NCBI RefSeq assembly: GCF_000423625.1
Contig: NZ_AUII01000001.1
Span: 124,001-188,000 of the forward strand
From: Pseudonocardia asaccharolytica DSM 44247 = NBRC 16224
Lineage (GTDB): Bacteria; Actinomycetota; Actinomycetes; Mycobacteriales; Pseudonocardiaceae
DNA: 64,000 bases
Direction of reading: 5' to 3'
The notes under the pieces are model-generated. The model did not search any database. It was given only the letters and a program-made list of their open reading frames with translations, and was not told the origin of the DNA. Below are positions 3,827 to 23,827 of the stretch, piece by piece. The position numbers were made by a program, and so were the translations under genes. The first letter of the stretch is position 1; every line of letters begins with the position of its first letter.

Positions 3827-5347
3827 GTGGGGGTTCCGGTTCGGTGGTTGCTGGACCGGCCGGAGCTGGGCCTTGCGGTGCTGGCGGGCGCGGACGCGCT
3901 GGACCGGCCGATCACCTGGGCGCACAGCATCGAGCTGGCCGATCCGGTGCCCTGGCTGCGCGGCGGGGAGCTGCTGCTGACCACCGGACTGCGGCTGCCG
4001 ACCGACCCCGAGGGGCAGGGCGTCTACGCGCGGTCGCTGCACGGGGTGGGCGTGGCCGCGATCGGCTTCGGGGTGGGGCTGTCGCATCAGCGGGTTCCCC
4101 GGCCGCTGATGTCGGCCGCCGATGAGCTGGGGCTGCCGCTGCTGGAGGTACCGCTGCCCACCCCGTTCGTCGCGGTCGTGCGTGCGGTGACCGAGCGGCT
4201 GGCGCAGCAGCAGTACGAGGGTTTCGTGCGGGCCTCCCGGGTACAGCCGCGGATGACCAGGGCCGCGGTCCGGGGTGGGGCCGCGGCCGTGGTGCGGGAG
4301 CTGGCCAAAGCCGTGGGCGGCAACGCGCTGTTGCTGAGCCCGGACGGGGCCGTGCTGGCGGGGTATCCGCCGTCGGCGGCGGGGATGGCCGCGACGGCGG
4401 TGGCGCGGCTGGGTGGACTGGGCGGCGAAACGGCGGCGAGCACGGCCAGCGTCGACCCGCAGGGGGCGGTCACCGCGCAGGTGGTGCGGGTCGGACGCCG
4501 GGTGCACGGCCATCTCCTGCTGGTCACCGAGGCCGGGCTGGGGCCTGCGGACCAGCTGCTGCTCGGTCATGCGGTGTCGCTGGCGGGGCTGGAACAGGAA
4601 AAGCCCCTTCGGGTGCGGGAGGCCCAGAACCGGCTGACCGCGTCGGTGCTCCGGCTGACGCTGGACGGCGGGCTCTCCGGTCCGGCCGCCGTCGAACAAC
4701 TGCGAGCGGCGGGCTTCCCGGACAGCCCGCGGATGGCCGCCGTGGCGATCGGCGGAGTGGCGCCGTCGCGGGTGCTGGCGGTGGCGGACCGGGTGCTCGC
4801 CGAGCAGGGGGTGCCGTGCGTCGGCGTCGAGCGGGACGGGTTCGCGCTGCTGCTGCTGCCCGGGGAGCCCGCAGGGCTCGCCGAGTCGATCATCGCCGAG
4901 GCCCGCGGCGGACGCGGCCGGATCCGCGCCGGGCTCGCCCGTGCGTCGCCGCCGGTCGAGATCGCCGACGTGGCGGCGCGGGCGCTGAGCGCGGCCAGGG
5001 TCGCGGCGGCTCGCGGCACCGAGCTGTTCGACGCGGCCGGGCTGGCCGGGCAGGTGCTGGCGGGCGAACCGGCGACCCGGGCGGTGCTGGCCGGGCTGGC
5101 GCGGGCCCGGCTCGGCCCGCTGGCCGAGCACGATCGACGGACCGGTGCCGAGCTGGTCGCATCGTTGCGGGCCTTCCTGGAGCACCACGGTCAGCTCGAG
5201 GCCGCGTCGGCCGAGCTCGGGGTGCACCGGCACACCCTGCGCGCCCGGATCGACCGGATCCGCGAGCTGCTCGACGTCGACCTCGGTTCGGCGCATGTGC
5301 GGGCCGAACTCCTGCTCGCCCTCGTCGCCTGGTCCGACCGCCGCTGA
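3827..5347 (+). CDS. PucR-family transcriptional regulator
   Basis: A 506-residue regulator of the PucR/CdaR type, a family that often controls purine, amino acid or lactam catabolism. The N-terminal PucR domain (about residues 5-120) includes LLDRPELGLAVLAG and ELLLTTGLRLP. The C-terminal helix-turn-helix (about 445-500) contains AASAELGVHRHTLRARIDRI. The GTG at 3827 is preferred over the one at 3818 because GGAGG (3814-3818) is 8 nt upstream of it. It follows proS after a palindromic terminator and is convergent with the gabT-type gene; its likely targets are the transaminase and the dehydrogenase operon, but nothing in the sequence proves this. A second PucR protein is encoded at 22.2 kb. 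Confidence 0.88.
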   Translation: MGVPVRWLLDRPELGLAVLAGADALDRPITWAHSIELADPVPWLRGGELLLTTGLRLPTDPEGQGVYARSLHGVGVAAIGFGVGLSHQRVPRPLMSAADELGLPLLEVPLPTPFVAVVRAVTERLAQQQYEGFVRASRVQPRMTRAAVRGGAAAVVRELAKAVGGNALLLSPDGAVLAGYPPSAAGMAATAVARLGGLGGETAASTASVDPQGAVTAQVVRVGRRVHGHLLLVTEAGLGPADQLLLGHAVSLAGLEQEKPLRVREAQNRLTASVLRLTLDGGLSGPAAVEQLRAAGFPDSPRMAAVAIGGVAPSRVLAVADRVLAEQGVPCVGVERDGFALLLLPGEPAGLAESIIAEARGGRGRIRAGLARASPPVEIADVAARALSAARVAAARGTELFDAAGLAGQVLAGEPATRAVLAGLARARLGPLAEHDRRTGAELVASLRAFLEHHGQLEAASAELGVHRHTLRARIDRIRELLDVDLGSAHVRAELLLALVAWSDRR

Positions 5348-5383
5348 TCGGCGGCGGTCGGACCGGCCGGGCAGCCGCGGTGC

Positions 5384-6754
5384 TCAGGCCTGCGCGTCGA
5401 ACGCGTCGGCGAGGATCCCCAGACCCTCCTCGAGCAGGTCCTGAGGCAGCGAGAGCGGGGGCAGGAAGCGCAGGACGTTGCCGTAGGTGCCGGCGGTGAG
5501 CACGAGCAGGCCCGCGGCGTGACAGCTGCGCGCGATCCGTCCGGTGAGCTCGGCGTCCGGGGTGTGGTCGCCGCCCTTGACCAGCTCGATCGCGATCATC
5601 GCGCCGCGGCCGCGGACGTCGCCGATGACGTCGTGGCGCTGCCGCATCCGGTCCAGTGCCGGCAGCATGGTGGCCTCGATCGCCCGGGCGCGGGCGAGCA
5701 GGTCGCCCCGCTCGATCTCCTCGAAGACACCGAGGGCGGCCGCGCAGGACACCGGGTTGCCGCTGAACGTCCCGCCGAGCCCGCCGGCGGGGGCGGCGTC
5801 CATGAGCTCGGCCCGGCCGGTGACCCCCGCGATCGGCAGCCCGCCGCCGAGGCCCTTGGCCGTGGTCACCAGGTCCGGCTGGACGCCCTCGTGGTCGATC
5901 GCGAACCACCGGCCGGTGCGGGCGAGGCCGGACTGCACCTCGTCGGCGATGAGCACGATGCCGCGGTCGCGACAGATCTGGGCCACCGCGGACAGGAAGC
6001 CCGGCGCGGGCACGATGAATCCGCCCTCGCCCTGGATCGGCTCGATCAGCACGGCGGCCACGTTCTCCGCCCCGATCTGGCGATCGACGAGCTCGACCAG
6101 TGCGTCGGCCGCCTCCCGCGCGCACTGCTCCGGCCCGGTCGGCCAGCGGTACGCATACGCCATCGGCGCGCGGTACACCTCCCCGGCGAACGGCCCGAAC
6201 CCGTGCTTGTAGGGCCGGTTCTTCGCGGTGAGGGTCATCGTCAGCAGGGTGCGGCCGTGGTAGGCGTGGTCGAACGCGACGACCGCGGGCCTGCCGGTGG
6301 CCGCGCGGGCGATCTTCACGGCATTCTCGATCGCCTCGGCGCCGGTGTTGAACAGCACCGTGCGGGCCGGGCCCGCGACGGGCGCCCGCCGGTTGAGTTC
6401 CTCGCAGACGGCCACATAGGACTCGTACGGGTTCACCAGGAAGCAGGTGTGGGTGAACCGCTGCAGCTGCGCGGCGGCCCGCTCGACGACGCCGGTGGCG
6501 GCGTTGCCGACCGTGGTCACCGCGATCCCGCTGCCGAAGTCGATGAACGAGTTGCCGTCGGCGTCGACGACGACCCCGCCGCCCGCGGCCTCGACGAACA
6601 CGGGCAGGGCGGACCCGACGCCCGCCGGCAGCGCCGCGCGCTGCCGCTCCTGCAGCTCCCGCGAGCGCGGGCCCGGGATCTCGGTGTGGATCCGTCTGCG
6701 CTGGGGCAGGGCCGGTCCACCGAGAGCGTGGGTGGTGTCGGGAGCGACGGTCAT
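5384..6754 (-). CDS. gabT: 4-aminobutyrate/5-aminovalerate aminotransferase (class III, PLP)
   Basis: Moves the omega-amino group of GABA or 5-aminovalerate to 2-oxoglutarate, giving a semialdehyde and glutamate. The 456-residue protein shows FDHAYHGRTLLTMTLT, the cofactor Asp in VLIADEVQSGLARTGRWF, and the PLP lysine in TTAKGLGGGLPIAGV. ATG at 6754 is chosen because GGAGG stands 5 nt upstream; a GTG 36 nt earlier lacks a site. The gene is divergent from an operon with a semialdehyde dehydrogenase, CoA-transferase and glutaryl-CoA dehydrogenase. That context favours 5-aminovalerate (DavT activity) over GABA, because glutarate semialdehyde would be the product needed. Substrate choice cannot be read from sequence. 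Confidence 0.9.
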   Translation of the reverse strand: MTVAPDTTHALGGPALPQRRRIHTEIPGPRSRELQERQRAALPAGVGSALPVFVEAAGGGVVVDADGNSFIDFGSGIAVTTVGNAATGVVERAAAQLQRFTHTCFLVNPYESYVAVCEELNRRAPVAGPARTVLFNTGAEAIENAVKIARAATGRPAVVAFDHAYHGRTLLTMTLTAKNRPYKHGFGPFAGEVYRAPMAYAYRWPTGPEQCAREAADALVELVDRQIGAENVAAVLIEPIQGEGGFIVPAPGFLSAVAQICRDRGIVLIADEVQSGLARTGRWFAIDHEGVQPDLVTTAKGLGGGLPIAGVTGRAELMDAAPAGGLGGTFSGNPVSCAAALGVFEEIERGDLLARARAIEATMLPALDRMRQRHDVIGDVRGRGAMIAIELVKGGDHTPDAELTGRIARSCHAAGLLVLTAGTYGNVLRFLPPLSLPQDLLEEGLGILADAFDAQA

Positions 6755-6927
6755 ATCGGCCTCCGGGGTCCGCTGCGGCTGGTGGTGCACGCGCAGCGCA
6801 TCATCGCGGGCTCCGCGACGGCCATGGCCGAGATGGAGTGTCGTCGGCTCTGGGACAGGACGAGACGTCCAGTGTGTCGGCTGCGCGTGCAGGTCGACGA
6901 TGAGCCGTCCGACGAGGAGGGACGGCC

Positions 6928-9900: not shown

Positions 9901-10185
9901 TCGATGGCGATCTCGATCCTGCGCGACGAGCTGTCGGGCGCCCGCCGGGCGGTGCTGACCGCGGCGCTGGGCGACGCCGCCGCCCCAGGGGCGGCACGGG
10001 TGCGCGCCTGGCTCGACGAGCACCGGACCGAGACCCAGCGGCTGCGTACGACCACCGACGAGCTGCACGCCTTCCCCCGGCTCGACGCGGCGATGGCCGC
10101 GACGGTGGTCGCGCAGCTGCGGCTACTCGCCGGACCGGATGCGGTGCCCGCGCTCGCGGCCCGCAGCGAAGGGAGCACGAGATGA
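6928..10185 (+). CDS. NAD-specific glutamate dehydrogenase, short form
   Basis: Oxidises glutamate to 2-oxoglutarate and ammonia with NAD. The catalytic core is clear: RGGVRWSDRPEDFRVEVLQL, then KNAVIVPDGAKGAFV, then the dinucleotide-binding VAGIGDMSGDVFGNGML and VVGEGGNLGVTQRGRIEF. Large bacterial NAD-GDHs have about 1600 residues with N-terminal ACT-like regulatory domains; this one has 1085 and begins near the catalytic half. The ATG follows a strong GAGGAGGG site, so the short form appears to be the real product. It is the first gene of a four-gene operon joined by overlapping stops and starts. In that setting it would regenerate the 2-oxoglutarate consumed by the divergent aminotransferase. 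Confidence 0.88.
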   Translation: MGSTVATQPDVTEPAAGDLAPALRRLHAQPGLGAGPRVAFLAADTDVAGPVCLARWPGRPPLLADIVPLFEQFGLRLAAVIGLPGEDAVRRLDFARPPDGWDAELTTLVEGAFPDAAHPGVVGDPFAKLVVAARLPWRDVELIRAAASYLNQAGLGHSDGYVVATLGRHPRFVRALAALFRARLHPHLTNRPAAVDHARRELHSLLERSTTLDEDRILRGVSSFVDAILRTNWYQRGQDGGPKPYRAFKLDAARLSLRGPDAPLREVFVHAPDVAGIHVRAGLVARGGVRWSDRPEDFRVEVLQLLKTQRVKNAVIVPDGAKGAFVVRGGADPAACYDTFVRGLLDVTDDLVDGEVVTAPDTVAHDGPDPYLVVAADKGTARFSDRANAIAAQRGFWLVDAFASGGSAGYDHKAMGITARGSWVAVRQHLAELGSDPDVDEITVAGIGDMSGDVFGNGMLESRRIRLVAAFDHRHVFLDPDPDPATSYRERERLARLAASSWADYDPALISGGGGVWPRTAKRIELSPQARRRLGVATASLPPDEVIRAILRAPVDLLWNGGIGTYVKAGAETHGEAADPANDTVRVDAEQLRCRVVGEGGNLGVTQRGRIEFARGGGRINGDFIDNAAGVNTSDREVNLKILLAAAESAGELTRAQRDRLLARAADEVAAAVLDDSAQQVLAISLAESQSPFLLDRHARLVRHLERVHGLDRTRDVLPDDEELAARARRGHGLTRPEIAVLLAHSKNVVRADLLASEIPDDPAFAELLAGYFPASLRERLARWVPGHRLAREIVATRLAGDLINHMGPGFVMRMEERFGASSARVAVAIAAVRAVFDNDRLWQAVTARTDVPFAARVVLLRRIQEFVERAAAWLVHRRGPALRPSVERRTLRPMIDAVHAALPGLDGGTAPTCVTDGIGELVAAGCPRDLATEVAALPVLADALDAADVATGLGRDVADVAGAALELDRALELGVLAERLTDVAGASHWESMAISILRDELSGARRAVLTAALGDAAAPGAARVRAWLDEHRTETQRLRTTTDELHAFPRLDAAMAATVVAQLRLLAGPDAVPALAARSEGSTR

Positions 10186-11693
10186 CCGAGATCGTCCAGA
10201 CCGAACCGCGTGCCGCGCGGGACGGCGCCGCGGCGCCGGTACCGTTGCGCCAGCTCGTCGGCGGCCGGTGGGTGAGCGGCGCGGGCGCCGAACTGGTGGA
10301 CCGCAACCCGGCCCGCCCCGACGAGCTCGTCGCGGTCGGGCGGCTGGCCGGCCGCGACGACCTCGACGCGGCCGTCGCCGCCGCCGCTGCGGCCTTCCCC
10401 GGCTGGGCGGCCATGCCGTTCCCGGTGCGCGGCGAGATCCTCGCGCGGGCCGCCGACGTGCTCGTCGGCAAGGCCGACGCGTGGGGGGTGGAGCTGGCGC
10501 GCGAGGAGGGCAAGACCCGTGCCGAGAGTGTCGGTGAGGTCCGGCGCGCGGCGGAGATCCTGCGCTTCTTCGCCGCGGAGGGGCTGCGCCCGGTGGGGGA
10601 GGTGTTCGCCTCCGCCCGGCCCGGAGAGCAGATCCAGGTGCTGCACCGTCCGGTCGGGGTGGTCGCGGTGGTGACCCCGTTCAACTTCCCGATCGGCATC
10701 CCGGCCTGGAAGATCGCTCCGGCGCTGGCCTACGGCAACACGGTGGTGTGGAAGCCGGCGAGCACCGTGCCGCTGCTCGCGATGCGCCTGGCCGAGGCGC
10801 TCGTCGCCGCGGGCCTCCCCGACGGGGTGCTGTCGCTGCTGATCGGGCCCGGATCGGTCGGGGCGGCACTGGTCGAGCATCCCGGGGTGGACCGGGTGAG
10901 CTTCACCGGCTCCACGGCCGTCGGCCGCGACCTGATCGCCCGCTGCGGACGGCTGGCCCGCCCGATCCAGACCGAGATGGGCGGCAAGAACGCGGCCGCG
11001 GTGCTCGCCGACGCGAACCTCGATCTCGCGGTGGACGAGGTGGTGGCGGGCGCGTTCCGCTCCACCGGGCAGAAGTGCACGGCGACCTCGCGGCTGATCG
11101 TCACCGACCGGGTGGCCGGGGAGTTCCTGGCGCTGCTGGTAGAGCGGGTGACCGCGCTGCGGGTCGGCGACCCGCTCGACGCCGACGTCCAGATGGGGCC
11201 GCTGATCACCGCGACGGCCCGCGACGACGTGCGGGCCGCGGTGGAGCAGGGCCTGCGGCGACCGGGGGTGACCCTGCTGGTGGGCGGCGAGCCCTACCGC
11301 GACGCGCGGCGGGCGGACGGGGCGTTCCTCGCCCCGACGGTGGTGGAGCTGGCCGGGGACGATCCGCTCTGGCGCGAGGAGCTGTTCGGCCCGGTACTGG
11401 CCGTGCGCCGGGCCCGCGACGACGCCCACGCACTGGAACTGGTGAACGACAGCGCGTTCGGGCTCTCGGCGGCCGTGTTCACCGACGACCTGCGCGCGAT
11501 CACCGCGGCCACCCAGACCTTGGACGTCGGCGTGCTGCACATCAACTCCGAAACCGCGGGCGCTGACCCGCACGTCCCGTTCGGCGGGGCGAAACAGAGC
11601 GGTTTCGGCCCGAAGGAGCAGGGAAGGGCCGCGCGGGAGTTCTACACCACGACCACGACGGTGTACCTGCGGGCATCGGGAGGAGTGTCTTGA
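10182..11693 (+). CDS. Aldehyde dehydrogenase, probable glutarate/succinate semialdehyde dehydrogenase
   Basis: A 503-residue NAD(P)-dependent aldehyde dehydrogenase. It has VTPFNFPIGIPAWK (catalytic Asn region), QTEMGGKNAAAV (general base Glu) and STGQKCTATSR (nucleophile Cys near residue 300). Overall sequence resembles the 2-oxoglutarate/succinate semialdehyde dehydrogenase group. Its ATG overlaps the glutamate dehydrogenase stop by 4 nt (ATGA), so the two are translationally coupled. Given the downstream glutarate-activating genes, oxidation of glutarate semialdehyde to glutarate (DavD role) is the likeliest function. Succinate semialdehyde or 2,5-dioxovalerate are alternatives. Confidence 0.85.
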   Translation: MTEIVQTEPRAARDGAAAPVPLRQLVGGRWVSGAGAELVDRNPARPDELVAVGRLAGRDDLDAAVAAAAAAFPGWAAMPFPVRGEILARAADVLVGKADAWGVELAREEGKTRAESVGEVRRAAEILRFFAAEGLRPVGEVFASARPGEQIQVLHRPVGVVAVVTPFNFPIGIPAWKIAPALAYGNTVVWKPASTVPLLAMRLAEALVAAGLPDGVLSLLIGPGSVGAALVEHPGVDRVSFTGSTAVGRDLIARCGRLARPIQTEMGGKNAAAVLADANLDLAVDEVVAGAFRSTGQKCTATSRLIVTDRVAGEFLALLVERVTALRVGDPLDADVQMGPLITATARDDVRAAVEQGLRRPGVTLLVGGEPYRDARRADGAFLAPTVVELAGDDPLWREELFGPVLAVRRARDDAHALELVNDSAFGLSAAVFTDDLRAITAATQTLDVGVLHINSETAGADPHVPFGGAKQSGFGPKEQGRAAREFYTTTTTVYLRASGGVS

Positions 11694-12865
11694 TGAGCCT
11701 GCCACTCGACGGGGTGCTGGTCGCCGACTTCGGCCGGGTCCTCGCCGCCCCCTACGCGACCATGCTGCTCGGCGATCTCGGCGCCGATGTCGTCAAGATC
11801 GAACATCCGGCGGCCGGCGACGACACCCGGGCCTGGGGTCCCCCGTTCGCGGCCGGAGAGGCCACCTACTTCCTTTCGGTCAACCGCAACAAGCGGTCCT
11901 TCGCCGCGGACCTGCGCGACGCGGCGACCCGGGACGGGGTCGTCGAGCTCGTCCGGCGCGCCGACGTCCTCGTGGAGAACTTCCGCCCCGGCACCATGGC
12001 CCGCCACGGGCTGTCCTACGAGGAGGTGCGCGCGCTCAACCCGCGGCTGGTCTACTGCTCGATCACCGGCTTCGGGTCGGGTAAGGGCGCGGCGCTGCCG
12101 GGCTACGACCTGCTGGTGCAGGCCGTCGGCGGGCTGATGAGCATCACCGGGCCCGCGCCTGGGACCCCGGTGAAGGCCGGGGTGGCACTGGTCGACGTGC
12201 TCACCGGGCTGCATGCCACCGTGGGGATCATGGCCGCGCTGCGCGCCAGGGAGACCACCGGCGAGGGCCAGCTCGTGGCCATCGACCTGCTGAGCACGCT
12301 GTTGTCCAGCATGGTCAACCAGAGCGCCGGGTTCACCGCGGCGGGCGCGGTCCCGGGCATCCTCGGCAACCGGCACCCGTCGATCGCACCGTACGAGGTG
12401 TTCCCGACCGCCGACCGCCCGATGGTCATCGCGGTCGGCAACGACCGCCAGTTCGCCGCGCTGTGCCAGGGCCTCGGCGTCCCCCACCTGACTGCCGACC
12501 CCCGGTTCGTCACCAATACCGACCGGGTGGCACACGTCGACGCGCTCGCCGAGGTGCTCGCCGCCCAGCTCTCGGCGCGTCCGGCCGGCCAGTGGTTCGA
12601 CCTGCTCACCCCGCTCGGGGTGCCCTGCGGTCCGGTCAACGACCTGGCGGCGGCCTTCGAGCTGGCCGAGGACCTGGGGCTCGGGCCGCGGGTGCGGGTC
12701 GGCGACGGCGCCGATGCCGTCGACGTCGTCGCGAACCCGATCGGGCTGTCCGCGACGCCGCCCCGGTACCAGACCCGGCCGCCGCGGCTGGGCGAACACA
12801 CCGCGCAGCTGCGCGCGTGGCTGTCCACCTCACCCGACCCTCTCACCGATAGGAGCATCCGATGA
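11693..12865 (+). CDS. CaiB/BaiF (family III) CoA-transferase, probable glutarate CoA-transferase
   Basis: A 390-residue family III CoA-transferase. It opens LPLDGVLVADFGRVLAAPYATMLLGDLGADVVKIEHP, the typical nucleotide-binding start, and carries the catalytic Asp in VALVDVLTGLHA near residue 168. These enzymes move CoA between acids, for example from succinyl-CoA to glutarate. ATG at 11693 is used because AGGAG lies 7-8 nt upstream; the in-frame TTG three bases earlier is less likely. It overlaps both the preceding stop (TGATG) and the following start (ATGA). Placement directly before glutaryl-CoA dehydrogenase indicates it makes glutaryl-CoA, as the SUGCT homologue does in mammals. The substrate is inferred from context. 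Confidence 0.87.
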   Translation: MSLPLDGVLVADFGRVLAAPYATMLLGDLGADVVKIEHPAAGDDTRAWGPPFAAGEATYFLSVNRNKRSFAADLRDAATRDGVVELVRRADVLVENFRPGTMARHGLSYEEVRALNPRLVYCSITGFGSGKGAALPGYDLLVQAVGGLMSITGPAPGTPVKAGVALVDVLTGLHATVGIMAALRARETTGEGQLVAIDLLSTLLSSMVNQSAGFTAAGAVPGILGNRHPSIAPYEVFPTADRPMVIAVGNDRQFAALCQGLGVPHLTADPRFVTNTDRVAHVDALAEVLAAQLSARPAGQWFDLLTPLGVPCGPVNDLAAAFELAEDLGLGPRVRVGDGADAVDVVANPIGLSATPPRYQTRPPRLGEHTAQLRAWLSTSPDPLTDRSIR

Positions 12866-14034: not shown

Positions 14035-14060
14035 GCCTTCCGCCCGCGCCCTTTCATCGC

Positions 14061-15145: not shown

Positions 15146-16137
15146 CAATGAGCCTTCCCAGTAGTCGTCGGGGCAGTGGTGGGCGACCCGCCGATGATGC
15201 TGGGATGGTCGGGACGAGGACGGGACCTCGATAGAAGAGTCGGTCCGCCTAAAGATCGACCTGAACACCGAGGTCCCGCATGTCCGATCCGGTCACTTAC
15301 ACCGCCGTGCTCCCGATCCGGCCGGCCACGGTGAGGTTCCTGTCGAGCCTTCTGGCCGGTGAGCGCGCTCGTCGAGGGACCCGGGAAGGCCGGCGTGCGC
15401 TCGGCTGCCACGATCAGGCCGTGCTGGTGCTGCGCTGGTTCACCGATGGCACCCGAGTCGCTCAACTCGCGATCGACAACGCCCTCGGTGAGTCCACCGT
15501 CGACCGGTATCTGCACGAGGGGATCGACGTGCTCGCCGAGCGCGCCCCTGGTCTGCCCGGTGCCCTGCTCGCCGCCCGCGCCGCCGGGCATACCCACGTC
15601 CACCTCGACGGCACCCTGATCCGCACCGACCGCTCGCGCGGTCGGCCCGACCGCGAAGGTGGACCCGTGGTGGGCGGGCAAGCACCGCCATCACGGCGGG
15701 AACGTGCAGGTCCTCACCGCCCCGCACGGCTGGCCGCTGTGGACCTCGCCCGGTGCGCCCCGGCCACGAGCACGACACCACCTGCGCCCGGGCCCATCCC
15801 GGGCTGCTCGAGGGGCTCGACCGGTGGACCGACACCGCGCACGCCGTGCTGGCCGACCTCGGTTACGAGGGCGAGAGCACCCGGCTGACCTACCCGATCA
15901 AGACCATCCGTGGCCACCGGCTGACGGCTGACCAGCGCATCGTCAACGCCCTGCACGCCGCGACCCGCACCCTGGCCGAGCGCGGGAACTCGCTGCTCAA
16001 GACCACCTTCAAGGCCCTGCGCCGAGTCAGCCTCTGCCCGTGGCGCATCGACGCGATCACCGCCGCAGCACTGGTTCTGCTCCACCACGAACACGACCGA
16101 ACCACCTGATCAATCCGCTACTGGGAAAGGCTCATTG
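15146..16137. mobile_element. Degenerate IS of the IS5-like DDE group, with terminal inverted repeats
   Basis: CAATGAGCCTTCCCAGTAG (15146-15164) is the inverted copy of CTACTGGGAAAGGCTCATTG (16118-16137), differing by one T. Between them lies one transposase frame carrying at least two frameshifts. The exact ends and target duplication cannot be fixed; the outer bases may belong to the target. The element is about 1 kb, normal for this group. Confidence 0.8.
15280..16109 (+). pseudogene. IS5-like (DDE_Tnp_4 type) transposase, two frameshifts
   Basis: Reading starts at ATG 15280 (MSDPVTYTAVL) with a helix-turn-helix region (GESTVDRYLHEGIDVLAE) and HVHLDGTLIRTDR, the first catalytic Asp. The frame then shifts near 15640 to give PWWAGKHRHHGGNVQVL, and again near 15755 to give HEHDTTCARAHPGLLEG, LADLGYEGES (second Asp region) and the C-terminal ERGNSLLKTTFKALRRVSL (Glu region), ending at TGA 16109. 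All parts of a full-length transposase are present but in three frames, so no active enzyme can be made without frameshifting. Confidence 0.85.
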
Positions 16138-16293
16138 TGGAGCCATGATGTCGTTGATGACGTCCCATCCAATGCACTATGGAGCCATAACGTGCTGGAG
16201 TGCGGCGCTCCAGCCACGTTATGGCTCCATAATGTGCTGTGGAGATGTGCGGCGCCTGCGTTATGGCTCCATGTTATGGCTCCATAACGCAGC
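16136..16293. repeat. Cluster of five TTATGG..CCATAA-type palindromes (family C)
   Basis: Copies of (T/C)(T/A)ATGG-CT/AG-CCAT(A/G)A occur near 16138, 16177, 16213, 16260 and 16276, in both orientations, filling the space between the IS and the permease gene. Two of them (16260 and 16276) are almost in tandem. The same unit is found at 14061-14120. Spacing is irregular. Confidence 0.8.
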
Positions 16294-16308
16294 CAGGGGG
16301 TACTGCCG

Positions 16309-17895
16309 CTACCGCCGGGTTGCCGCGTCGAGGAAGGCCGAGTTGCTGCTGGCGCAGTCGGCGCAGATCGGGGTCAGGTCGGAGGTGGACGGGTCGCGGT
16401 CCATCTCATGGGCGATGTAGCTGCGGTCGCAGCCGCCGCACCGCACCCGGACCTGCCAGCTGTCCTCGACCTCGTCGCGGGGATCGTTGCCCCGGCCGAT
16501 CGCCGCGGACTGCTGGCCGGTGAGCGCGCGCAGCCCGACGTACAGGACGGCGGCCAGGACGAAGGTGATGATCGAGCCCCAGGCGCCGACCCACGCCATC
16601 CCGGACTCCACGAGGCCGATGCCCACGGCGGCCGAGCCGATCCACGCGACGAGCCCCGGGGTCCACAGCGAGCGCACCCGGCCCGGCCGGAACTCCACCT
16701 GGTCGGGGGCGACGCCGGCGCGGCGGCTCAGCAGGATGTGCATCAGCGCGATCGCCACCCAGCCGGTCACCAGCGCTCCCTGCCAGGCCAGCGCGACCAG
16801 CAAGTACTTCAGCACCGGCGTCAGCATCAGCAGGTAGATGACGGCGCTGGAGACGAGCACCCAGACCCAGCGGGGCAGATGCAGCTTGAAGGCGCGGGCG
16901 GCGAAGCTCTCCAGGTTGCTGGAGGCGAGGTAGTAGTTCGCGGTGTTGATCCGGGTCTGGGACACCCACACCAGGGCCACCCCGACGATCCCCATCAGCG
17001 TCACGATGCCGACCGCGACACCACCCTCGGTGGCCTCGGTGCCGGTCGCGTGGACGAGGTAGATGCCCGCGACCCCGTTCGCCCCGAAGGCGAGCAGGTA
17101 GTAGACCCAGCCGAAGGTGACCGTCGCGTGGTAGCGCGCGTCCTCCGGCTTGGCGAGCCGGGCGAAGTCCATCGTGTACATCATGAGGATGAATACGCCC
17201 AGGTAGGCGCTGAAGCAGGCCAGCCAGTTGGGGCCCCCGGCACTCAGCGGCAGGGCCGATGCGGCACCGGCGTTGGTCAGCCACTCGCCGTCGTAGCCGT
17301 GCGCGGACACCGCCCAGACCACCGCGGCCACCAGGCCGGTCCAGTACAGGGGCAGCAACACCCCGTTGATCTTGTCCAGCCAGCGGCGCACGCCGCCGAT
17401 GACCAGCGGCGTGGAGTAGAGCACCACCACGAGGTACCAGACGGCCAGGCTGCCGCCGAAGTACGTCTGGAAGGCGACGCCGATGATGCTGCCTTCGAAC
17501 ACCGCGTAGTAGATCGCGGTCGCCGCGAAGACCAGCGCGGCCAGCGCCGCGCCCGCCCGGCCCAGCAGCGCCCGGGAGAACAGGGCCACGGTGAGCCCGG
17601 TCTGGGCGGCGAACCGGGAGAGCACGGCGTTGATCGCCCCGTACACCACGATCGTCAGACCGAGCCCGATCAGGGCGTTGACCGTGCCGTAGGCGGCGGC
17701 GAGGCTCGCCGCGATATAGAGGAAGAACATGGCGCTGACCAGCGCGTACCACGCCATCGTGAGATTGCCCCGGCGGAGCCGCCAGGAATGGGGGGCGACG
17801 TGCAGCGAGTAGTCCTCGGTCGCCGCCTCGGCGAGAACCCGCGGATCGTCGCCGGTACTGGTCTCCAGCGGGGTGATGAGCGTCTTCGTGTCCAT
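16309..17895 (-). CDS. NCS1-family permease with C-terminal zinc-ribbon-like tail
   Basis: A 528-residue integral membrane protein of the purine/cytosine/allantoin permease (NCS1) family. About 12 hydrophobic segments span residues 45-480, and the N-terminal HSWRLRRGNLTMAWYALVSAMFF is typical. It should import a nitrogen-containing ring or small amide. Unusual: after the last membrane segment a soluble tail has CGGC and CADC pairs 22 residues apart, with an acidic loop, forming a likely zinc ribbon. The gene is third in a minus-strand series after hyuA and hyuB, 137 bp behind hyuB, with a GGAG site before ATG 17895. The transported compound is presumably the substrate of HyuAB. Confidence 0.87.
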   Translation of the reverse strand: MDTKTLITPLETSTGDDPRVLAEAATEDYSLHVAPHSWRLRRGNLTMAWYALVSAMFFLYIAASLAAAYGTVNALIGLGLTIVVYGAINAVLSRFAAQTGLTVALFSRALLGRAGAALAALVFAATAIYYAVFEGSIIGVAFQTYFGGSLAVWYLVVVLYSTPLVIGGVRRWLDKINGVLLPLYWTGLVAAVVWAVSAHGYDGEWLTNAGAASALPLSAGGPNWLACFSAYLGVFILMMYTMDFARLAKPEDARYHATVTFGWVYYLLAFGANGVAGIYLVHATGTEATEGGVAVGIVTLMGIVGVALVWVSQTRINTANYYLASSNLESFAARAFKLHLPRWVWVLVSSAVIYLLMLTPVLKYLLVALAWQGALVTGWVAIALMHILLSRRAGVAPDQVEFRPGRVRSLWTPGLVAWIGSAAVGIGLVESGMAWVGAWGSIITFVLAAVLYVGLRALTGQQSAAIGRGNDPRDEVEDSWQVRVRCGGCDRSYIAHEMDRDPSTSDLTPICADCASSNSAFLDAATRR

Positions 17896-18032: not shown

Positions 18033-20024
18033 TCAGGCCCAGTAGGCGGCGGAACGCCGCTGCATCAGCTCGCGGTACTGCTCGGTGGTGCGCTCGTGCA
18101 GCTCCCCGGTACCCCAGTCGACGATGACGCCGTAGCGGCGGACGAGGTCGAGCATATCCAGTTCGCCCGCCCGGTAGCGGCGGGCCACGTCCTGCGGATC
18201 CTCCTGCAGCCAGTCGCTGCGCTCCGCCGCGATCGAGGCCCGCAGCGACTCGGTGGCCGGCTCGTCGATCTCGTACCGGTCGAGCTCGGGGTCGATGACG
18301 GTGATGACGACGCCGTAGTCCTTCGCCGCGCGCTCAACGGAGACGTAGCCGTCGACGACGTCCTCCACGACGGCCGCCGGGTCGCGGGTCAGCGGGTCCC
18401 CGAGACCGCCGCCGCCCGCGGACGGCCGGGTGAAGGAGTCCCCGGGCTTGATCGGCACGCCGGAGAAGGTGACGCCGAGGAAGCGTTCGGCATCGGTGCC
18501 CTTGTTGAGCCAGACCCCGTGCGGCACAGAGGGAAGACCGCCCTCGATGCCCCAGGTGATCGAGCGCGCCCGGTCGCAGCAGTAGGACATCACGGTGTTC
18601 TCACAGTCGGTGAGCACGCCGCCCTTCTCCAGCCCGCAGCCGCCGCGGTGGCGGCCCGGTCCGCCGGAGTCGGTGACGATGCGGTGCGCGCTGGTCAGCA
18701 CGGGCGAGAGCCGCTCCTGCCCCTCGACCGGCTGGACCGCGAGGCCGACGCCGAAGACCGGTGCGGTGGCCCCGGAACCGTCCTTGGTGGCACGGCCGCC
18801 CCAGCCGCCGGCCATCCAGTCGTACCACATGAAGTACGGGCGGTCGGTCGTGCGCGCGTCCCGGCCGCCGACCAGCAGGTATTCGAGGTTGAACGCGCAG
18901 GCCATCGCGCGTTCCGGCATGACCTTCGACCAGATCTCGAAGATCCCGTTCATCAACTTCTCGTAGGGACCCGAGCAGAAGCCGGTGACCGCATGCGGCC
19001 ATCCGGCGTTGACCACGGTTCCCTCCGGGCCGATCTCGGCCTGCACCACCCGGTAGAAGCCGGAGTTCAGGGCCACCTCGGGGAAGAACGTCTTCGTCCC
19101 GGCGTACAGCGCGGAGTGGGTGGTGCCGTAGCCGGAGTTGAGGAAGGTCGAGACGGCGGGCGCGCTGCCGCGCAGGTCGTAGTGGATGCCCTCGTCGTCG
19201 ATCGTCATCTTGATCGAGATCGGGACGAGGCCCTCCGGCTGTCCGGGGTCGGCATCGAGGTAGTCGACGGCCGTCCACTCACCCTTGGGCAGCTCGGCGA
19301 GCCGGTTGCGCACGATCCGTTCGACGTAGTCCTGCACCCCGGCCATCGCGGCGACCACGACGTCGGTGCCGTAGCGCTCGACCAGCCGCAGGATCTCCCG
19401 TTCGCACACCGCGGTCGCCTCGGCCTGCGCGTTGAGATCGCCCATGCTGGAGTACGGCGAGCGGGTGTTGGAGACCAGCAGCTGCGCGACGTCGTGCAGC
19501 AGCCGTCCGCGGTGCCACACCCGCACCGGGGTGATCCGCAGGCCCTCCCCGAAATGTTCCTTCGCGTTCACGTCGAACGAGCCGGGCACCGTCCCCCCGA
19601 TATCCGCCCAGTGGCCCTTGTTCTGCGCGAACCCGATGATCCTCGGACCGACGAAGATCGGCCGGATGAAGCTGACGTCGTTGAAGTGGGTGCCGCCGCG
19701 GTACGGGTCGTTGACCGCGAAGACGTCCCCGGGGTTGATGTCGTCGCCGAACTCCTCCAGCACGGCCTTGCACTGGAAGTGCAGGGTGCCCACGTGCACG
19801 GCGATATCGCCGGTCCCCTGCATCACCGTGTTGCCCTCGGCATCGCACAGCGCCGAGGAGAAGTCGCGCGCGTAGATGACGAACGAGTAGCAGGTCCGCA
19901 TGATCTGCTCGCTCATCAGGTCGACCGCGGTGACGAAGGCGTTCTTGAGGACCTCGAAGGTCACCGGGTCCAGCGGACCCGGGGTGATCCCGCCGGCGTG
20001 GTGTTCGGGCATGGTCTGGGTCAT
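18033..20024 (-). CDS. Hydantoinase B/oxoprolinase-family subunit, possible lactam hydrolase subunit B
   Basis: A 663-residue HyuB-type protein: DPVTFEVLKNAFVTAVDLMSEQIMRTC at the start, then HVGTLHFQCKAVLEEF and GDVFAVNDPYRGGTHFNDVSFIRPIF, all family hallmarks. With HyuA it forms an ATP-dependent amidohydrolase that opens cyclic amides such as hydantoins, 5-oxoproline, caprolactam or valerolactam. Its ATG is 3 nt behind the hyuA stop, so the two subunits are co-translated. The length and the C-terminal SAGGGGLGDPLTRDP are normal. The nearby 5-aminovalerate/glutarate-type genes make a lactam substrate attractive, but hydantoin or N-carbamoyl routes and acetophenone/acetone carboxylase-like relatives cannot be excluded. 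Confidence 0.85.
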   Translation of the reverse strand: MTQTMPEHHAGGITPGPLDPVTFEVLKNAFVTAVDLMSEQIMRTCYSFVIYARDFSSALCDAEGNTVMQGTGDIAVHVGTLHFQCKAVLEEFGDDINPGDVFAVNDPYRGGTHFNDVSFIRPIFVGPRIIGFAQNKGHWADIGGTVPGSFDVNAKEHFGEGLRITPVRVWHRGRLLHDVAQLLVSNTRSPYSSMGDLNAQAEATAVCEREILRLVERYGTDVVVAAMAGVQDYVERIVRNRLAELPKGEWTAVDYLDADPGQPEGLVPISIKMTIDDEGIHYDLRGSAPAVSTFLNSGYGTTHSALYAGTKTFFPEVALNSGFYRVVQAEIGPEGTVVNAGWPHAVTGFCSGPYEKLMNGIFEIWSKVMPERAMACAFNLEYLLVGGRDARTTDRPYFMWYDWMAGGWGGRATKDGSGATAPVFGVGLAVQPVEGQERLSPVLTSAHRIVTDSGGPGRHRGGCGLEKGGVLTDCENTVMSYCCDRARSITWGIEGGLPSVPHGVWLNKGTDAERFLGVTFSGVPIKPGDSFTRPSAGGGGLGDPLTRDPAAVVEDVVDGYVSVERAAKDYGVVITVIDPELDRYEIDEPATESLRASIAAERSDWLQEDPQDVARRYRAGELDMLDLVRRYGVIVDWGTGELHERTTEQYRELMQRRSAAYWA

Positions 20025-20027
20025 CGC

Positions 20028-22064
20028 TCACGCCTCCGTCAGGTGGATCCGGATGTTCAGCCACTCGTCGACCTCGGCGCGGGTGCCGGGCGGGACGACC
20101 GTGGTGGAGTCGAGCTGGTCGATGACCGCGGGGCCGGTCAGCTCGCTGCCCGCGGGCAGCGCGTCGCGGTCGTGGACCGGGGTGTCGAGCCAGCCGTTCC
20201 CGTCGAAGTACACCTTGCGGGTCTTCAGCGGCGCGGGTGCCGGCTTACGCGACGCATCGTGCGGGGTGAACGCCGGCTTCGGGGTGGTGCCGACCGCGGT
20301 CAGCCCGAGCTGGTAGATCTCGACCGGCGTGTCGTCGCGCCGGAAGGCGTACTCGCGCTCGTGCTGCTCGTGGAACAGCTGCACGGCCTCGGCCAGCGCA
20401 CCGCGCCCGCTGCCGCATCGGACGTTCAGCGACCGCCACTGGCCCAGGTAGCGCATCGAGACCAGACGCTGGAGGACCGCGTCCTCCGGGGCGACGCCCT
20501 CGTGGCGCAGCCGGGCCGATGCCTCGGCCTCCAATCCGGCGAAGGCGTTCTCGAACTCCTCCTCGTCGGCCTCGTGCGCCAGCGCCCCGAACATGGCCGA
20601 CAGGTCGTGGCGGATGTCCACGAGCAGGCAGCCCAGCGCCGAGGTGACCCCTGGGTTCGCCGGGACGATCACGGTCGGGATACCCAGCTCACGCGCCACC
20701 TCGGCGCCGTGCAGGGCACCCGCACCGCCGAAGGCCACCAGTGCGAAGTCGCGCGGGTCGTAGCCCCGGCGGATCGAGATCAGCCGCACCGCATCGGCCA
20801 TGTTGGCGTTCGCCACCTTGAGGATGGCGCTGGCGGCCTGCTCCACATCGAGCCCGAGCGGCCGGGCGACGCCGTCGAGGATGGCCTTCTCGGCAAGCTC
20901 GGGCCGCAGCACCTTGGCGCCCCCGGCCAGTGAGGTGCCGAGCCGGTTGAGCACCAGGTTGGCGTCGGAGTTCGTGGGCTCGGTGCCGCCGCCTGCGTAG
21001 CACGCGGGGCCCGGGTCGGCCCCGGCTGACTGCGGACCGTTGCGCAGCGAACCGGCCTCGTCGATATAGGCGATGGAGCCGCCGCCGGCCCCGATCGTCA
21101 GGACCTCGATCGACGGGAAGATGATCGGGTAGCCGTACTCGACCGACCATTCCTTGGTGACCCGCAGCTCGCCGCCGTGGACGAGCGAGATGTCCGTGCT
21201 GGTGCCGCCCATGTCCAGACCGATCGCGTTGGCGTAACCGCATTGGGCCGCGACGTGCCGGGCCGCGATCGCGCCTGCCGCGATGCCCGACGCGGCCAGC
21301 CGGACCGGGTAGCGTTCCACCATCCGCGGCGTCATCGACCCGCCGCCGGAGTGCAGCAGCAGCAGGTCACCGGCGTAGCCGCCCGCGCCCAGCTGCTCGG
21401 CGAGCCTGCTGACGTACCCGCTGACCAGCGGCGCGAGCACCGCGTTCGCCACGGTGGTGGTGAACCGGTCGTGCTCGAAGATCTCGGGCAGGATCTCGGC
21501 GCTGGTCGAGATCGTCGCGTCCGGCAGCTCCTCCTCGAGGATCTCCCGCATCCGGATCTCGTGCGCCGGGTTGACGTAGGAGTTCACGAAGCACACCGCG
21601 ACGGTCTGCACCTCGCGTTTGCGCAGCAGGGCGGCGATCCGGCGGGCCTCCTGTTCGTCCAGCGGTGTCACCACCTGGCCCGAGTAGTCGATCCGCTCGC
21701 TCACCTCGAACCGGTCGCGGCGGCGGATATAGGGCGGGGCGACGTCGTGATAGGCGTCCCACAGATCGTCCTTGGTGCCGTCCCGGATCTCGATCACGTC
21801 CCGGAACCCGGTGGTGGTCACCAGGGCGGCCGGGCGGAAGTTGCGGGTGATGAGCGCGTTGGTGGCCACGGTCGTGCCGTGCGAGAACAGCGAGACCGCG
21901 GCGAGGTCGACGTCGGCCCGCGTCACCCCGTCGAGGACCGCCCGCATGGGGTCGCTCGGGGTGGACGGCACCTTCGTGACGCGGACCTGGCGTGTTGTCT
22001 CGTCGAAGATGCACACGTCCGTGAACGTGCCGCCGACGTCGACGGCTACGCGTTGTTTCGACAT
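20028..22064 (-). CDS. Hydantoinase A/oxoprolinase-family ATPase subunit, possible lactam hydrolase subunit A
   Basis: A 678-residue HyuA protein with the ASKHA nucleotide-binding motifs VAVDVGGTFTDVCIFD at the N-terminus and IGLDMGGTSTDISLVHGG near residue 280, plus the conserved ADPGPACYAGGG block. It provides the ATP-using half of the HyuAB amidohydrolase: phosphorylation activates the ring amide for opening. ATG 22064 is preceded by GAGGGG. It leads the minus-strand series hyuA-hyuB-permease and is divergent from the PucR gene at 22.2 kb, which is its probable regulator. Substrate is not fixed by the sequence. Confidence 0.87.
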   Translation of the reverse strand: MSKQRVAVDVGGTFTDVCIFDETTRQVRVTKVPSTPSDPMRAVLDGVTRADVDLAAVSLFSHGTTVATNALITRNFRPAALVTTTGFRDVIEIRDGTKDDLWDAYHDVAPPYIRRRDRFEVSERIDYSGQVVTPLDEQEARRIAALLRKREVQTVAVCFVNSYVNPAHEIRMREILEEELPDATISTSAEILPEIFEHDRFTTTVANAVLAPLVSGYVSRLAEQLGAGGYAGDLLLLHSGGGSMTPRMVERYPVRLAASGIAAGAIAARHVAAQCGYANAIGLDMGGTSTDISLVHGGELRVTKEWSVEYGYPIIFPSIEVLTIGAGGGSIAYIDEAGSLRNGPQSAGADPGPACYAGGGTEPTNSDANLVLNRLGTSLAGGAKVLRPELAEKAILDGVARPLGLDVEQAASAILKVANANMADAVRLISIRRGYDPRDFALVAFGGAGALHGAEVARELGIPTVIVPANPGVTSALGCLLVDIRHDLSAMFGALAHEADEEEFENAFAGLEAEASARLRHEGVAPEDAVLQRLVSMRYLGQWRSLNVRCGSGRGALAEAVQLFHEQHEREYAFRRDDTPVEIYQLGLTAVGTTPKPAFTPHDASRKPAPAPLKTRKVYFDGNGWLDTPVHDRDALPAGSELTGPAVIDQLDSTTVVPPGTRAEVDEWLNIRIHLTEA

Positions 22065-22234
22065 GTTGCCCCTCGTGGGTCGGGAAGTGTGACTGATGTC
22101 CCGCTGCCGGCCGCGGTTGCTGGAGACTGTGCACCGACCCTGTGCGGCCGGTCACTGTAAGAACTCCAAAGTCTTGCGTGATCGATCTGTACGGTAGGAC
22201 AAATCATGGGCCCAACGTTGCGCCGGAACCGGGC

Positions 22235-23827
22235 ATGAGCCGGTCCATCGGTCAGCGACCGATGGGGCCGCTGACCCTGCGGCAACTCGTCGACGAGCCG
22301 AGCCTCGGGCTGGCGGTCGCTGAACCGGGTGATCTCTCGACGGTGGTGCGCGGGGCGCACTCGATCGAGATCGAGGATGCGGCTCGGTGGTTGCGCCCCG
22401 GGTGGATCATGCTGACCACGGGCTTGCGCTTCCTCGAACGGCCGGAGCACGAGGCGCCGCAGGCGCGGCTCGTCGACCAGCTCGTCGACGCCGGGGCCGC
22501 CGCCCTGCTCTTCGGCATCGGCGTCCATTTCGACGAGGTGCCTGCCGGCCTGCGCGAGGCGGCGCGCGAACGCCGCCTCCCACTGCTCACGGTGAGTGCG
22601 GGCACCCCGTTCGCCGCCGTCGAGGACTTCGTCAACCGGGGGACGCTGTCCTCGGAGACCTACCTGCTCAAGCGCACGGTCTGGCTGCAGAACGACCTGC
22701 TGAAGGCGCTCTCGGCCACCGACCCCGCCACCGCGCTCGTCACCCGGCTGTCCACGCTGAGCAAGGGGACGGCGGCCCTCTACGAGTCCTCCGGCCGGAT
22801 CATCGCGTCGACCGGCCACGGGCCGCTGCGGCTCATCTGGGAGGAGATCGCGACCAGGGAGACGGCGCCACAGCGCTTCTCGGTCGGGCGGTGGGCGGTG
22901 GCGACCCGTCCCTTCCTGCTGCGCGGCTCGGGCTTCCGGCTCGCCATCGCCTCGCAGAACAGCCCGCTCATCGACGACCTCGGACCGGACCTGCTCGAGA
23001 CCGCCGAACATGTGCTGGCCGCCGCCAACGCGGTCCGCGACCTGACCATGAACCAGGAGCGCGCGGAGGCGGCGCGCCTGGTCTCGGCGTTGCACGCCGG
23101 CGTGCCCGCCTCGCGCGTCCGCCAGACCTGGGATCGGTTGCGCCCGTTCCGCTTCCGGGTCGGGGGCGAGCTGCGGGTGATCTCCGCGAGTCCGCTGGCG
23201 CCGCGGCGGGCGTCGATCGATCCCCGCCGCCCCTCCGACGTGCTGCTGGAGGAGGCGCATCTGGAGGGACTCGGACTCATCCTCTCCGAGGAGGACGAGT
23301 CCGACACGTTCGGCAGCCCGCTGACGGCCGTGCTCGCCGACGGCCCGGCCGCCGACGGCTGGCTCGCGTTGCTCTCGGGCACGCATCTCACCGGTGTCAG
23401 CGGCCCGTTCGGGGATCTCACCGTCGCCCCGCAGTACTTCCAGGAGGCCGTCACCGCGCTGCGGGTGGCCGTCCGCCGCCACGACGTCGGCGCCGGCACC
23501 CGGATCGTGCGGCTCGACGAGGTCGATTTCGCCACCTGGCTGCTGACCCGGCGCGACGACGCGCAGGTCGCCGCGCGGTTCGACCGGCACTTCGGGGCGC
23601 TGGTCCGGGCCGGCGGCCTCGCCGAGACCGTGATCACGTATCTGGCCTGTCAGCAGGATGTCAAGAAGACGGCCGAGCGGCTGTTCGTGCATCCCAACAC
23701 CGTGCGCTACCGGCTGCACAAGGTGGAGCAGCAGATGGGCGCCCCGATCAGCGCCGCAAGCGTGGTCGCCAACCTCTACCTGGCCTTCCAGGACGAGATC
23801 CTCGCCCTCTCCCAACCCCGCCGGTGA
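22235..23827 (+). CDS. PucR-family transcriptional regulator
   Basis: A 530-residue PucR/CdaR-type regulator. The N-terminal PucR domain (about residues 10-135) includes LTLRQLVDEPSLGLAV and GWIMLTTGLRFLERP; the C-terminal helix-turn-helix includes QDVKKTAERLFVHPNTVRYRLHKVEQQM near residues 475-505. The frame is open upstream to 22142, but ATG 22235 is taken as start because the conserved domain begins soon after; ATG 22262 is possible. It is divergent from hyuA across a 170-bp gap, the standard position for a local regulator responding to the hydantoinase substrate. Confidence 0.87.
   Translation: MSRSIGQRPMGPLTLRQLVDEPSLGLAVAEPGDLSTVVRGAHSIEIEDAARWLRPGWIMLTTGLRFLERPEHEAPQARLVDQLVDAGAAALLFGIGVHFDEVPAGLREAARERRLPLLTVSAGTPFAAVEDFVNRGTLSSETYLLKRTVWLQNDLLKALSATDPATALVTRLSTLSKGTAALYESSGRIIASTGHGPLRLIWEEIATRETAPQRFSVGRWAVATRPFLLRGSGFRLAIASQNSPLIDDLGPDLLETAEHVLAAANAVRDLTMNQERAEAARLVSALHAGVPASRVRQTWDRLRPFRFRVGGELRVISASPLAPRRASIDPRRPSDVLLEEAHLEGLGLILSEEDESDTFGSPLTAVLADGPAADGWLALLSGTHLTGVSGPFGDLTVAPQYFQEAVTALRVAVRRHDVGAGTRIVRLDEVDFATWLLTRRDDAQVAARFDRHFGALVRAGGLAETVITYLACQQDVKKTAERLFVHPNTVRYRLHKVEQQMGAPISAASVVANLYLAFQDEILALSQPRR

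Follow-up and report, generated by a model that had tools for sequence, protein, structure and literature searches.

A two-block locus in Pseudonocardia asaccharolytica with a candidate gene set for converting a five-carbon lactam to glutaryl-CoA

Introduction

Gene clusters for lactam breakdown, the opening of valerolactam by OplBA and the placement of a PucR-type GabR regulator beside gabT have all been described, in accounts on portions of which we draw here. Pseudomonas jessenii GO3 carries a caprolactam cluster encoding CapAB, an omega-aminotransferase and a 6-oxohexanoate dehydrogenase, with a coenzyme A (CoA)-transferase and an acyl-CoA dehydrogenase on the same contig (PMC6061476). The HyuAB-type enzyme OplAB opens delta-valerolactam in vitro (PMC11033972), and OplBA of Pseudomonas putida KT2440 is likewise HyuAB-type and ATP-dependent, opening delta-valerolactam to 5-aminovalerate (PMC11033972, PMC11879879, PMC8453981). 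In the gabTDP locus of Corynebacterium glutamicum, the PucR-type GabR adjoins gabT (PMC7652997). Here we consider a locus of Pseudonocardia asaccharolytica DSM 44247 in which homologues of these elements occur together; the DNA analysed, referred to below as the window, is a stretch of 64,000 nucleotides (bases 124001-188000 of contig 1 in a 5.05-Mb genome). On balance, and with modest confidence, we read the locus as a two-unit route that leads to glutaryl-CoA from delta-valerolactam (2-piperidone) or a closely related lactam of five carbons.

The locus resembles that of P. jessenii GO3 in its two-subunit ATP-dependent lactamase, omega-aminotransferase, semialdehyde dehydrogenase, CoA-transferase and acyl-CoA dehydrogenase, but the P. 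jessenii system handles a six-carbon substrate via adipate and beta-oxidation, has an aminotransferase that works with pyruvate, and its HyuA belongs to another clade; glutamate dehydrogenase (GDH), glutaryl-CoA dehydrogenase (GCDH), an NCS1 permease and PucR go unmentioned in the portions of its description drawn on here (PMC6061476). OplBA differs in being 80-86% identical to CapAB, and hence a member of the CapA clade, and the C. glutamicum operon, in the part of its description used here, comprises no HyuAB, CoA-transferase or GCDH (PMC7652997). We found no description of the present cluster in the open-licence literature of PubMed Central, and nothing there on Halomonas PA16-9 or Rhodococcus gordoniae DND3. 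What is new here is the gene combination, the separate HyuAB clade and a short GDH held in common with R. gordoniae.

Our reading supplies the HyuAB clade with a specific, testable substrate prediction, drawn from a locus that seemingly encodes import of the lactam, its ring opening and its conversion onward to crotonyl-CoA; if true, enzymes for the nylon-5 monomer would be available from a source other than Pseudomonas, and there would be an example of a catabolic locus with its own glutamate dehydrogenase for its transamination step. More tentatively, and with the balance tilted somewhat against it, we suggest that HyuAB belongs to a new ATP-dependent lactamase subfamily, distinct from CapAB/OplBA, and acts within a locus-encoded pathway from delta-valerolactam to crotonyl-CoA whose own short NAD-GDH regenerates the amino acceptor, and that such pathways were assembled repeatedly, with actinobacteria, alphaproteobacteria and haloarchaea as hosts and two clades as the sources of HyuAB.

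Two gene blocks hold a candidate enzyme set

Block 1 (3.8-14.0 kb of the window) consists of a PucR regulator (PucR1, plus strand) facing a GABA (4-aminobutyrate)-type transaminase gene (gabT, minus strand), followed by a four-gene operon; block 2 (16.3-23.8 kb) consists of an NCS1-like permease, HyuB, HyuA and a second PucR (PucR2) (Table 1). All of the genes named in the first-pass annotation of this DNA are present about where it had placed them, and the family scores given in Table 1 are far beyond chance. Because consecutive genes overlap by 1-4 bases at the junctions of GDH with aldehyde dehydrogenase (ALDH; ATGA), ALDH with CoA-transferase (TGATG) and CoA-transferase with GCDH (ATGA), these four genes very likely form one coupled operon. 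In block 2, the minus-strand order is HyuA, HyuB (3 bp between them) and the permease (137 bp further on), and PucR2 diverges from HyuA.

Table 1. Features of the locus, in window coordinates (ORF, open reading frame).
Feature	Position	Strand	Match or remark
PucR1, PucR-family regulator	3818-5347	+	PF07905 9.1e-32, HTH_30 2.8e-17
GabT, predicted 4-aminobutyrate/5-aminovalerate:2-oxoglutarate transaminase	5384-6754	-	ORF open to 6790
gabT/GDH-operon intergenic region, head to head	6755-6927	.	173 bp; R. gordoniae plasmid equally divergent
Short NAD-glutamate dehydrogenase, 1085 aa	6928-10185	+	PF05088 (Bac_GDH_CD) 1.8e-215, PF21074, PF21078; frame open from 6904
ALDH, proposed glutarate-semialdehyde dehydrogenase	10182-11693	+	PF00171 (Aldedh) 5.5e-148
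Family III CoA-transferase, proposed succinyl-CoA:glutarate CoA-transferase	11693-12865	+	PF02515 (CoA_transf_3) 1.8e-120
Glutaryl-CoA dehydrogenase	12862-14034	+	best PDB match 3swo, glutaryl-CoA dehydrogenase, 618 bits
Inter-block region	14060-16297	.	AAA-ATPase and DDE transposase fragments; species-specific repeat copies at both ends
TTATGGCTCCATAA, exact copies	14062-14075, 16219-16232, 16274-16287		variants at 16178, 16262
AAA-type ATPase fragments	14194-15068	-	inter-block region
DDE transposase fragments	15280-16109	+	inter-block region
NCS1-like permease, proposed lactam importer	16309-17895	-	homologue matches in text
HyuB, predicted metal-dependent ring-opening subunit	18033-20024	-	PF02538 (Hydantoinase_B) 2.4e-153
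HyuA, predicted ATP-dependent activating subunit	20028-22064	-	PF01968 (Hydantoinase_A) 1.7e-84, PF05378, PF19278
PucR2, divergent proposed hyuAB regulator	~22235-23827	+	PF07905, HTH_30; ORF open from 22142

In the route that we propose, the NCS1-like permease would import the lactam, HyuA would activate it with ATP and the metal hydrolase HyuB would open the ring to give 5-aminovalerate. GabT would then pass the amino group to 2-oxoglutarate, yielding glutarate semialdehyde and glutamate, and the short NAD-GDH would convert the glutamate back to 2-oxoglutarate with release of ammonium. The ALDH would take glutarate semialdehyde to glutarate, the CoA-transferase would take glutarate to glutaryl-CoA, and GCDH would form crotonyl-CoA, feeding beta-oxidation. 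The two units would each answer to the regulator beside them, PucR1 controlling gabT and the GDH operon and PucR2 the permease and HyuAB.

The ring-opening step would fall to two adjacent genes whose products belong to the hydantoinase/oxoprolinase family, with matches to PF05378, PF01968, PF19278 and PF02538 well above cut-off. The metal ligands of CapB are named as Asp, His, Asp and His in the portion of its description used here (PMC8453981), and in an alignment all four (Asp41, His99, Asp102 and His124) are conserved in the window HyuB. We also considered an identity as acetone/acetophenone carboxylase, which we rejected on its lower scores.

The block 1 enzymes suggest probable five-carbon intermediates

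GabT exceeds the NCBIfam cut-offs for NF004714 (715.6 bits against 639) and for the GABA transaminase family TIGR00700 (564.5 against 506.65). It is the sole GABA-transaminase-type gene found in its own genome, the next being 39% identical. Of 24 relatives in the genus, just 2 have a counterpart at E 1e-150 or better, so the gene is not part of the housekeeping set of the genus. The ALDH reached no curated cut-off among the 25 NCBIfam families listed; its homologues of 73-76% identity directly adjoin GCDH in three same-genus genomes (G001, G022 and G025; handles in G denote genomes and those in L denote loci). For the CoA-transferase, the top NCBIfam match is the succinate-glutarate CoA-transferase model NF052585, at 364.5 bits and under its cut-off of 750, and the third-best PDB sequence is the succinate-hydroxymethylglutarate CoA-transferase 9br7. 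In a tree of 17 sequences it falls within a 9-tip group (support 0.998) that includes GCDH-linked CoA-transferases, and a Dietzia plasmid likewise pairs GCDH with a CoA-transferase.

At E 1e-120 the genome holds no second match to the GCDH. Its best structural matches are solved glutaryl-CoA dehydrogenases, and it keeps the key residues aligned to Arg94 and Glu370 of 1sir, which we take to be the human enzyme, the roles of the two residues being likewise assumed. It scores 194.6 bits against NF045552 (cut-off 470), presumably a model of the non-decarboxylating type. In three same-genus loci (L103, L104 and L107) GCDH lies near a gene whose start sequence resembles that of nicotinamide phosphoribosyltransferase, and in L103 also near a luciferase-like oxidoreductase. 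Four plasmid neighbourhoods of GCDH (H66, H67, H69 and H76) were looked at as candidates and set aside, with no HyuAB annotated close by.

Genome G050 offers a second indication of chain length: there, homologues of PucR1, the ALDH (61% identical) and GabT (65%) stand beside a carbon-nitrogen hydrolase and a flavoenzyme whose match to 3we0, the structure of an L-amino acid oxidase/monooxygenase, scores 1039.6 bits. We take 3we0 to be a lysine monooxygenase and the hydrolase/flavoenzyme pair to be DavBA-like. Because ALDH homologues adjoin GCDH in the three same-genus genomes and the PucR1, ALDH and GabT homologues of G050 occupy this lysine-monooxygenase-type setting, we favour five-carbon intermediates; both observations suggest that the transaminase and dehydrogenase act on 5-aminovalerate and glutarate semialdehyde. 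A route to succinate is disfavoured because the CoA-transferase and GCDH would have no role in it.

Homologues of PucR1 lie no more than 5 kb from gabT in G003 and G050, and near HyuAB in L114, L210 and L211 (36-37% identity). PucR1 likely controls gabT, to judge by analogy with GabR, whose position its own resembles. A PucR2 homologue stands divergently next to HyuA at ten loci (L037, L038, L039, L042, L207-L210, L218 and L114).

The GDH comprises the catalytic and C-terminal parts of a large NAD-GDH, with the usual N-terminal third missing, and at 1085 aa falls outside the class of large enzymes (~1600 aa) with an N-terminal regulatory region; among the GDH matches listed for relatives, most have open frames of ~1500-1700 aa. 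In trees of 31 and 36 sequences it is sister, with support 1.0, to the GDH of R. gordoniae (1045 aa). The proposal of the first-pass annotation that the locus recycles its own glutamate gains weight from this, because the sister enzyme sits in the R. gordoniae cluster described below. Two other short GDH frames, in G055 and G019, do not join the pair in the tree; that of G055 has no further cluster gene within 19 kb, and the contig bearing that of G019 is 4 kb in all. Two more NAD-GDH matches in the window's own genome (C1:110-3031 and C11:110-2665) begin less than 140 bases from contig starts, which makes it probable that both genes are cut by assembly breaks.

The permease shows no match to the NCS1 profile PF02133, and neither does its homologue in G610. 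We call it NCS1-like by relationship, because the profile does match its Halomonas homologue (40-41% identical; 32 bits, cut-off 23.5). It is 51% identical to the permease of the Paracoccus cluster considered next, and its AlphaFold model is poor (pLDDT 46). The C-terminal tail (window 16309-16440, minus strand) carries conserved CxxC pairs, which recur in the homologues from G014, G017 and Paracoccus aminophilus; the Halomonas homologue has no such tail.

Most of the gene set recurs beside HyuAB in unrelated organisms

The strongest parallel is the R. gordoniae plasmid pDND3A, which within 15 kb carries GDH, gabT, ALDH (60% identical to that of the window), CoA-transferase (61%), two PucR genes, HyuA (72%) and HyuB (74%), with GDH and gabT head to head as in the window; it differs in having, within 16.6 kb in all, an amino-acid permease instead of an NCS1-like one. 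Three Paracoccus records, all of one lineage (P. ferrooxidans pFER4, P. versutus pTAV4 and P. denitrificans), bring together ALDH, gabT, an acyl-CoA dehydrogenase, CoA-transferase, HyuB, HyuA and an NCS1-type permease. The acyl-CoA dehydrogenase is a homologue of the window GCDH (48% identical), and in P. ferrooxidans it carries the same two residues aligned to 1sir. Unlike the window, these clusters have a HyuA of the CapA clade (36-37% identical to the window's), and pFER4 has AraC-type and LysR regulators and no GDH in the 22 kb scanned. In P. putida KT2440, by comparison, gabT/davT and gcdH presumably lie elsewhere in the genome than oplBA.

A Natronococcus plasmid encodes a transaminase (37%), HyuB and HyuA (54-59%, with HyuA at ~54%), then, on the other strand, GCDH-like (53-55%) and CoA-transferase (44%) genes; the GCDH-like gene appears as two adjacent matches, and no aldehyde dehydrogenase match occurs within 30 kb. 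This locus is absent from our HyuA tree, which includes a Natrialba HyuA (54% identical) inside the window's clade. Finally, at a Sporosarcina locus HyuAB is accompanied by an aminotransferase, by aldehyde dehydrogenases and by a CoA-transferase from the window's tree group.

The finding of similar kits in unrelated microbes makes the predicted pathway credible. The first-pass annotation had proposed a complete lactam-to-glutaryl-CoA route, and of this proposal the gene set stands, being plausibly full and recurring in most of its enzyme types beside HyuAB on the R. gordoniae, Paracoccus and Natronococcus plasmids, and the substrate is a prediction.

With the window GabT as query (>100 bits, 88 loci), a class III aminotransferase occurs near HyuA at 7 of 18 loci of the window's clade and at none of 70 others. 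Using a wider query set, we counted an aminotransferase at 7 of 30 clade loci against 1 of 70 others (Fisher 8e-4), a permease homologue at 6 of 30 against 0 of 70 (5e-4), an aldehyde dehydrogenase at 7 of 30 against 2 of 70 (0.003) and GDH at 1 of 30 against 0 of 70, the loci being related to one another so that the Fisher values are a guide only. The window-GabT count is preferred for the aminotransferase, as five of the six aminotransferase queries of the wider count derive from loci of the clade or of CapA; the 12 clade loci beyond the window-GabT scan all lack an aminotransferase. Clade membership was taken from the HyuA tree, and the wider count omits L001 and L003 of the window's own genome and three CapA-clade loci. 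Flanks average 18.0 kb inside the clade and 16.6 kb outside and are short at some loci (for example L125, L127, L144 and L211), and one scan for homologues across genome contigs covers the best 80 of 580 matches. Among seven CapA-type loci, four of them (L260-L263) placed in this type through a match to CapA and not by the tree, a permease occurs in five and the rest of the set in three, all Paracoccus.

Evidence against a single lactam route and alternative readings

Several observations, gathered in this section with the readings they would favour, weigh against a connected route for a five-carbon lactam. The first alternative, which we regard as unlikely though worth serious attention, is that the blocks are independent neighbours, block 1 serving 5-aminovalerate or glutarate from lysine, polyamines or uptake and block 2 an unrelated cyclic amide. 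The closest HyuAB pairs (82-89% identical over full length in L037, L038, L208 and L209, together with the split L042) stand with PucR2 and apart from block 1, with no GabT, GDH or close GCDH match in ~5-10 kb on each side; at L038 and L209 a CoA-transferase (40-46% identity) does lie nearby, joined at L209 by a 29% acyl-CoA dehydrogenase. The stretches fetched for L207, L210, L211, L039, L218, Brevibacterium and Nesterenkonia likewise contain no GabT, GDH or close GCDH, and 26 kb of a Rhodococcus USK10 plasmid with HyuAB contains no block 1 genes. HyuA of the window's grade is rare. With the own genome counted, it occurs in 7 of 397 genomes sampled from the order (E 1e-225) and in 2 of 394 sampled from the class (1e-250), both sets being even draws from larger groups, and no GabT or GDH was found in the stretch fetched from the others.

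Block 1 elements, for their part, occur on their own: ALDH-GCDH pairs are found without HyuAB in the stretches fetched of G001, G022 and G025, and PucR1, ALDH and GabT share the lysine-type setting of G050. The blocks have separate regulators, and a comparison of the gabT/GDH and hyuA/pucR2 intergenic regions yielded no common motif above shuffles. The pDND3A parallel is imperfect as well, in that its CoA-transferase is interrupted by one in-frame stop and missing from the gene table, and no GCDH lies in the 42 kb scanned. What speaks against independence is that the R. gordoniae HyuAB nevertheless adjoins GDH, GabT, ALDH and CoA-transferase, and that the Paracoccus and Natronococcus HyuAB adjoin a transaminase, a CoA-transferase and a GCDH homologue. 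A search of the window's own genome for a lysine-monooxygenase-type gene, made without a positive control there, found none, a result that would also speak against independence.

An insertion sequence (IS) and decayed genes lie between the blocks, which also suits independent units. The first-pass annotation had noted them and supposed that they mark where the two blocks were joined. Their presence is borne out by the ATPase (minus strand) and DDE transposase (plus strand) fragments at 14.03-16.3 kb. The idea of a junction at this point is weakened because R. gordoniae carries both halves side by side, yet keeps some probability because the closest HyuAB units occur without block 1.

A second alternative, to which we give a small probability, is that HyuAB opens another ring feeding the neighbourhood: either 2-pyrrolidone to GABA, with GabT and the ALDH leading to succinate, or 5-oxoproline to glutamate, with GDH following. 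GabT does score as a GABA transaminase, in a Halomonas relative HyuAB is accompanied by a gene annotated as succinate-semialdehyde dehydrogenase, and five of the seven clade loci with an aminotransferase have neither a CoA-transferase nor an acyl-CoA dehydrogenase. Neither of these is enriched near HyuA of the clade (4 of 30 against 7 of 70 for the CoA-transferase, 2 of 30 against 6 of 70 for the acyl-CoA dehydrogenase), and the neighbour counts as a whole thus indicate that the clade tends to accompany omega-amino acid genes, with the glutaryl-CoA end at only some loci. HyuAB relatives in Methylobacterium, Shinella and Roseateles lie near 5-oxoprolinase PxpA and carboxyltransferase genes, but a HyuAB acting as 5-oxoprolinase would duplicate the adjacent Pxp enzyme there, and neither the pyrrolidone nor the 5-oxoproline route needs the CoA-transferase or GCDH of the operon.

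Yet other settings of HyuAB also detract from the valerolactam reading. At L210 (genome G395) it stands beside a P450, a reductase, glutamine-synthetase-like and C26-peptidase genes, an aldehyde dehydrogenase, two PucR genes and an NCS1-like permease, in what looks like a route for an N-heterocycle or amine. In G017 (L041, 12548-16186), di-iron monooxygenase subunits (Phenol_Hydrox) lie directly downstream of a 56% HyuAB homologue. According to the portion of the report drawn on here, an actinobacterial HyuAB, from Gulosibacter, failed to break down caprolactam in E. coli (PMC9477822).

Compared with named enzymes, the window HyuA shows 38.6% identity with CapA and 41.6% with an N-methylhydantoinase, the NCBIfam models for CapA (NF050156, 531.1 bits) and CapB (NF050157, 341 bits) are both missed widely (cut-off 1000 each), and the vicinal cysteine pair of CapB (410-411) is absent at the aligned HyuB positions. 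We built a midpoint-rooted HyuA tree of 117 sequences, leaving out the split L042 and three loci (L004, L005 and L006) without a long enough match. The window HyuA falls in a 32-tip clade (support 1.0) of actinobacteria, proteobacteria, Sporosarcina and a haloarchaeon, and CapA lies outside it, grouping with L220-L222 (support 1.0). The smallest group holding both the window HyuA and CapA has 59 tips and a support of 0.27, and an 81-tip group that holds both and excludes the N-methylhydantoinase has a support of 0.90. Given the support of 0.27 and tree distances of 2.78 to CapA and 2.61 to the N-methylhydantoinase, the tree does not decide which of the two is closer kin. Firm grouping of HyuAB with hydantoinases or oxoprolinases, which the first-pass annotation had named as an outcome that would refute its proposal, is not seen either, in a tree whose sole named references are CapA and one N-methylhydantoinase. 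Judged by sequence, HyuAB belongs, broadly speaking, to the family of ATP-dependent lactamases and falls outside the CapAB/OplBA group; as HyuA does not group with CapA, its lactam activity is one that we infer from gene context.

A last alternative, in which HyuAB would act as a hydantoinase or N-methylhydantoinase with no connection between the blocks, seems very improbable: the best PDB match of HyuA is indeed an N-methylhydantoinase (470.6 bits, against 392 for the CapAB entry 6yra), but the order is reversed for HyuB (273.4 bits for the CapAB entry against 253.2), the tree does not unite HyuA with 7hk5, and omega-aminotransferase genes recur near the HyuA clade.

Other features of the window and of HyuA homologues

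Copies of the 14-base near-palindrome TTATGGCTCCATAA flank the IS/AAA region between the blocks. The genome contains 54 exact copies (26 forward, 28 reverse), often 42 bp apart, against none of the reversed-pattern control, and there are none in 30 relatives, so that TTATGGCTCCATAA is an interspersed repeat specific to the species. The G+C content is 68-77% per kilobase over the 30 kb of the window profiled. Matches to the window HyuA occur in 588 of 72,556 plasmid records, and in the annotated plasmid rows listed the only name given to HyuA is "hydantoinase/oxoprolinase family protein". Elsewhere in the window, an Actino-pnp cis-regulatory RNA lies at 39612-39673 (63.8 bits).

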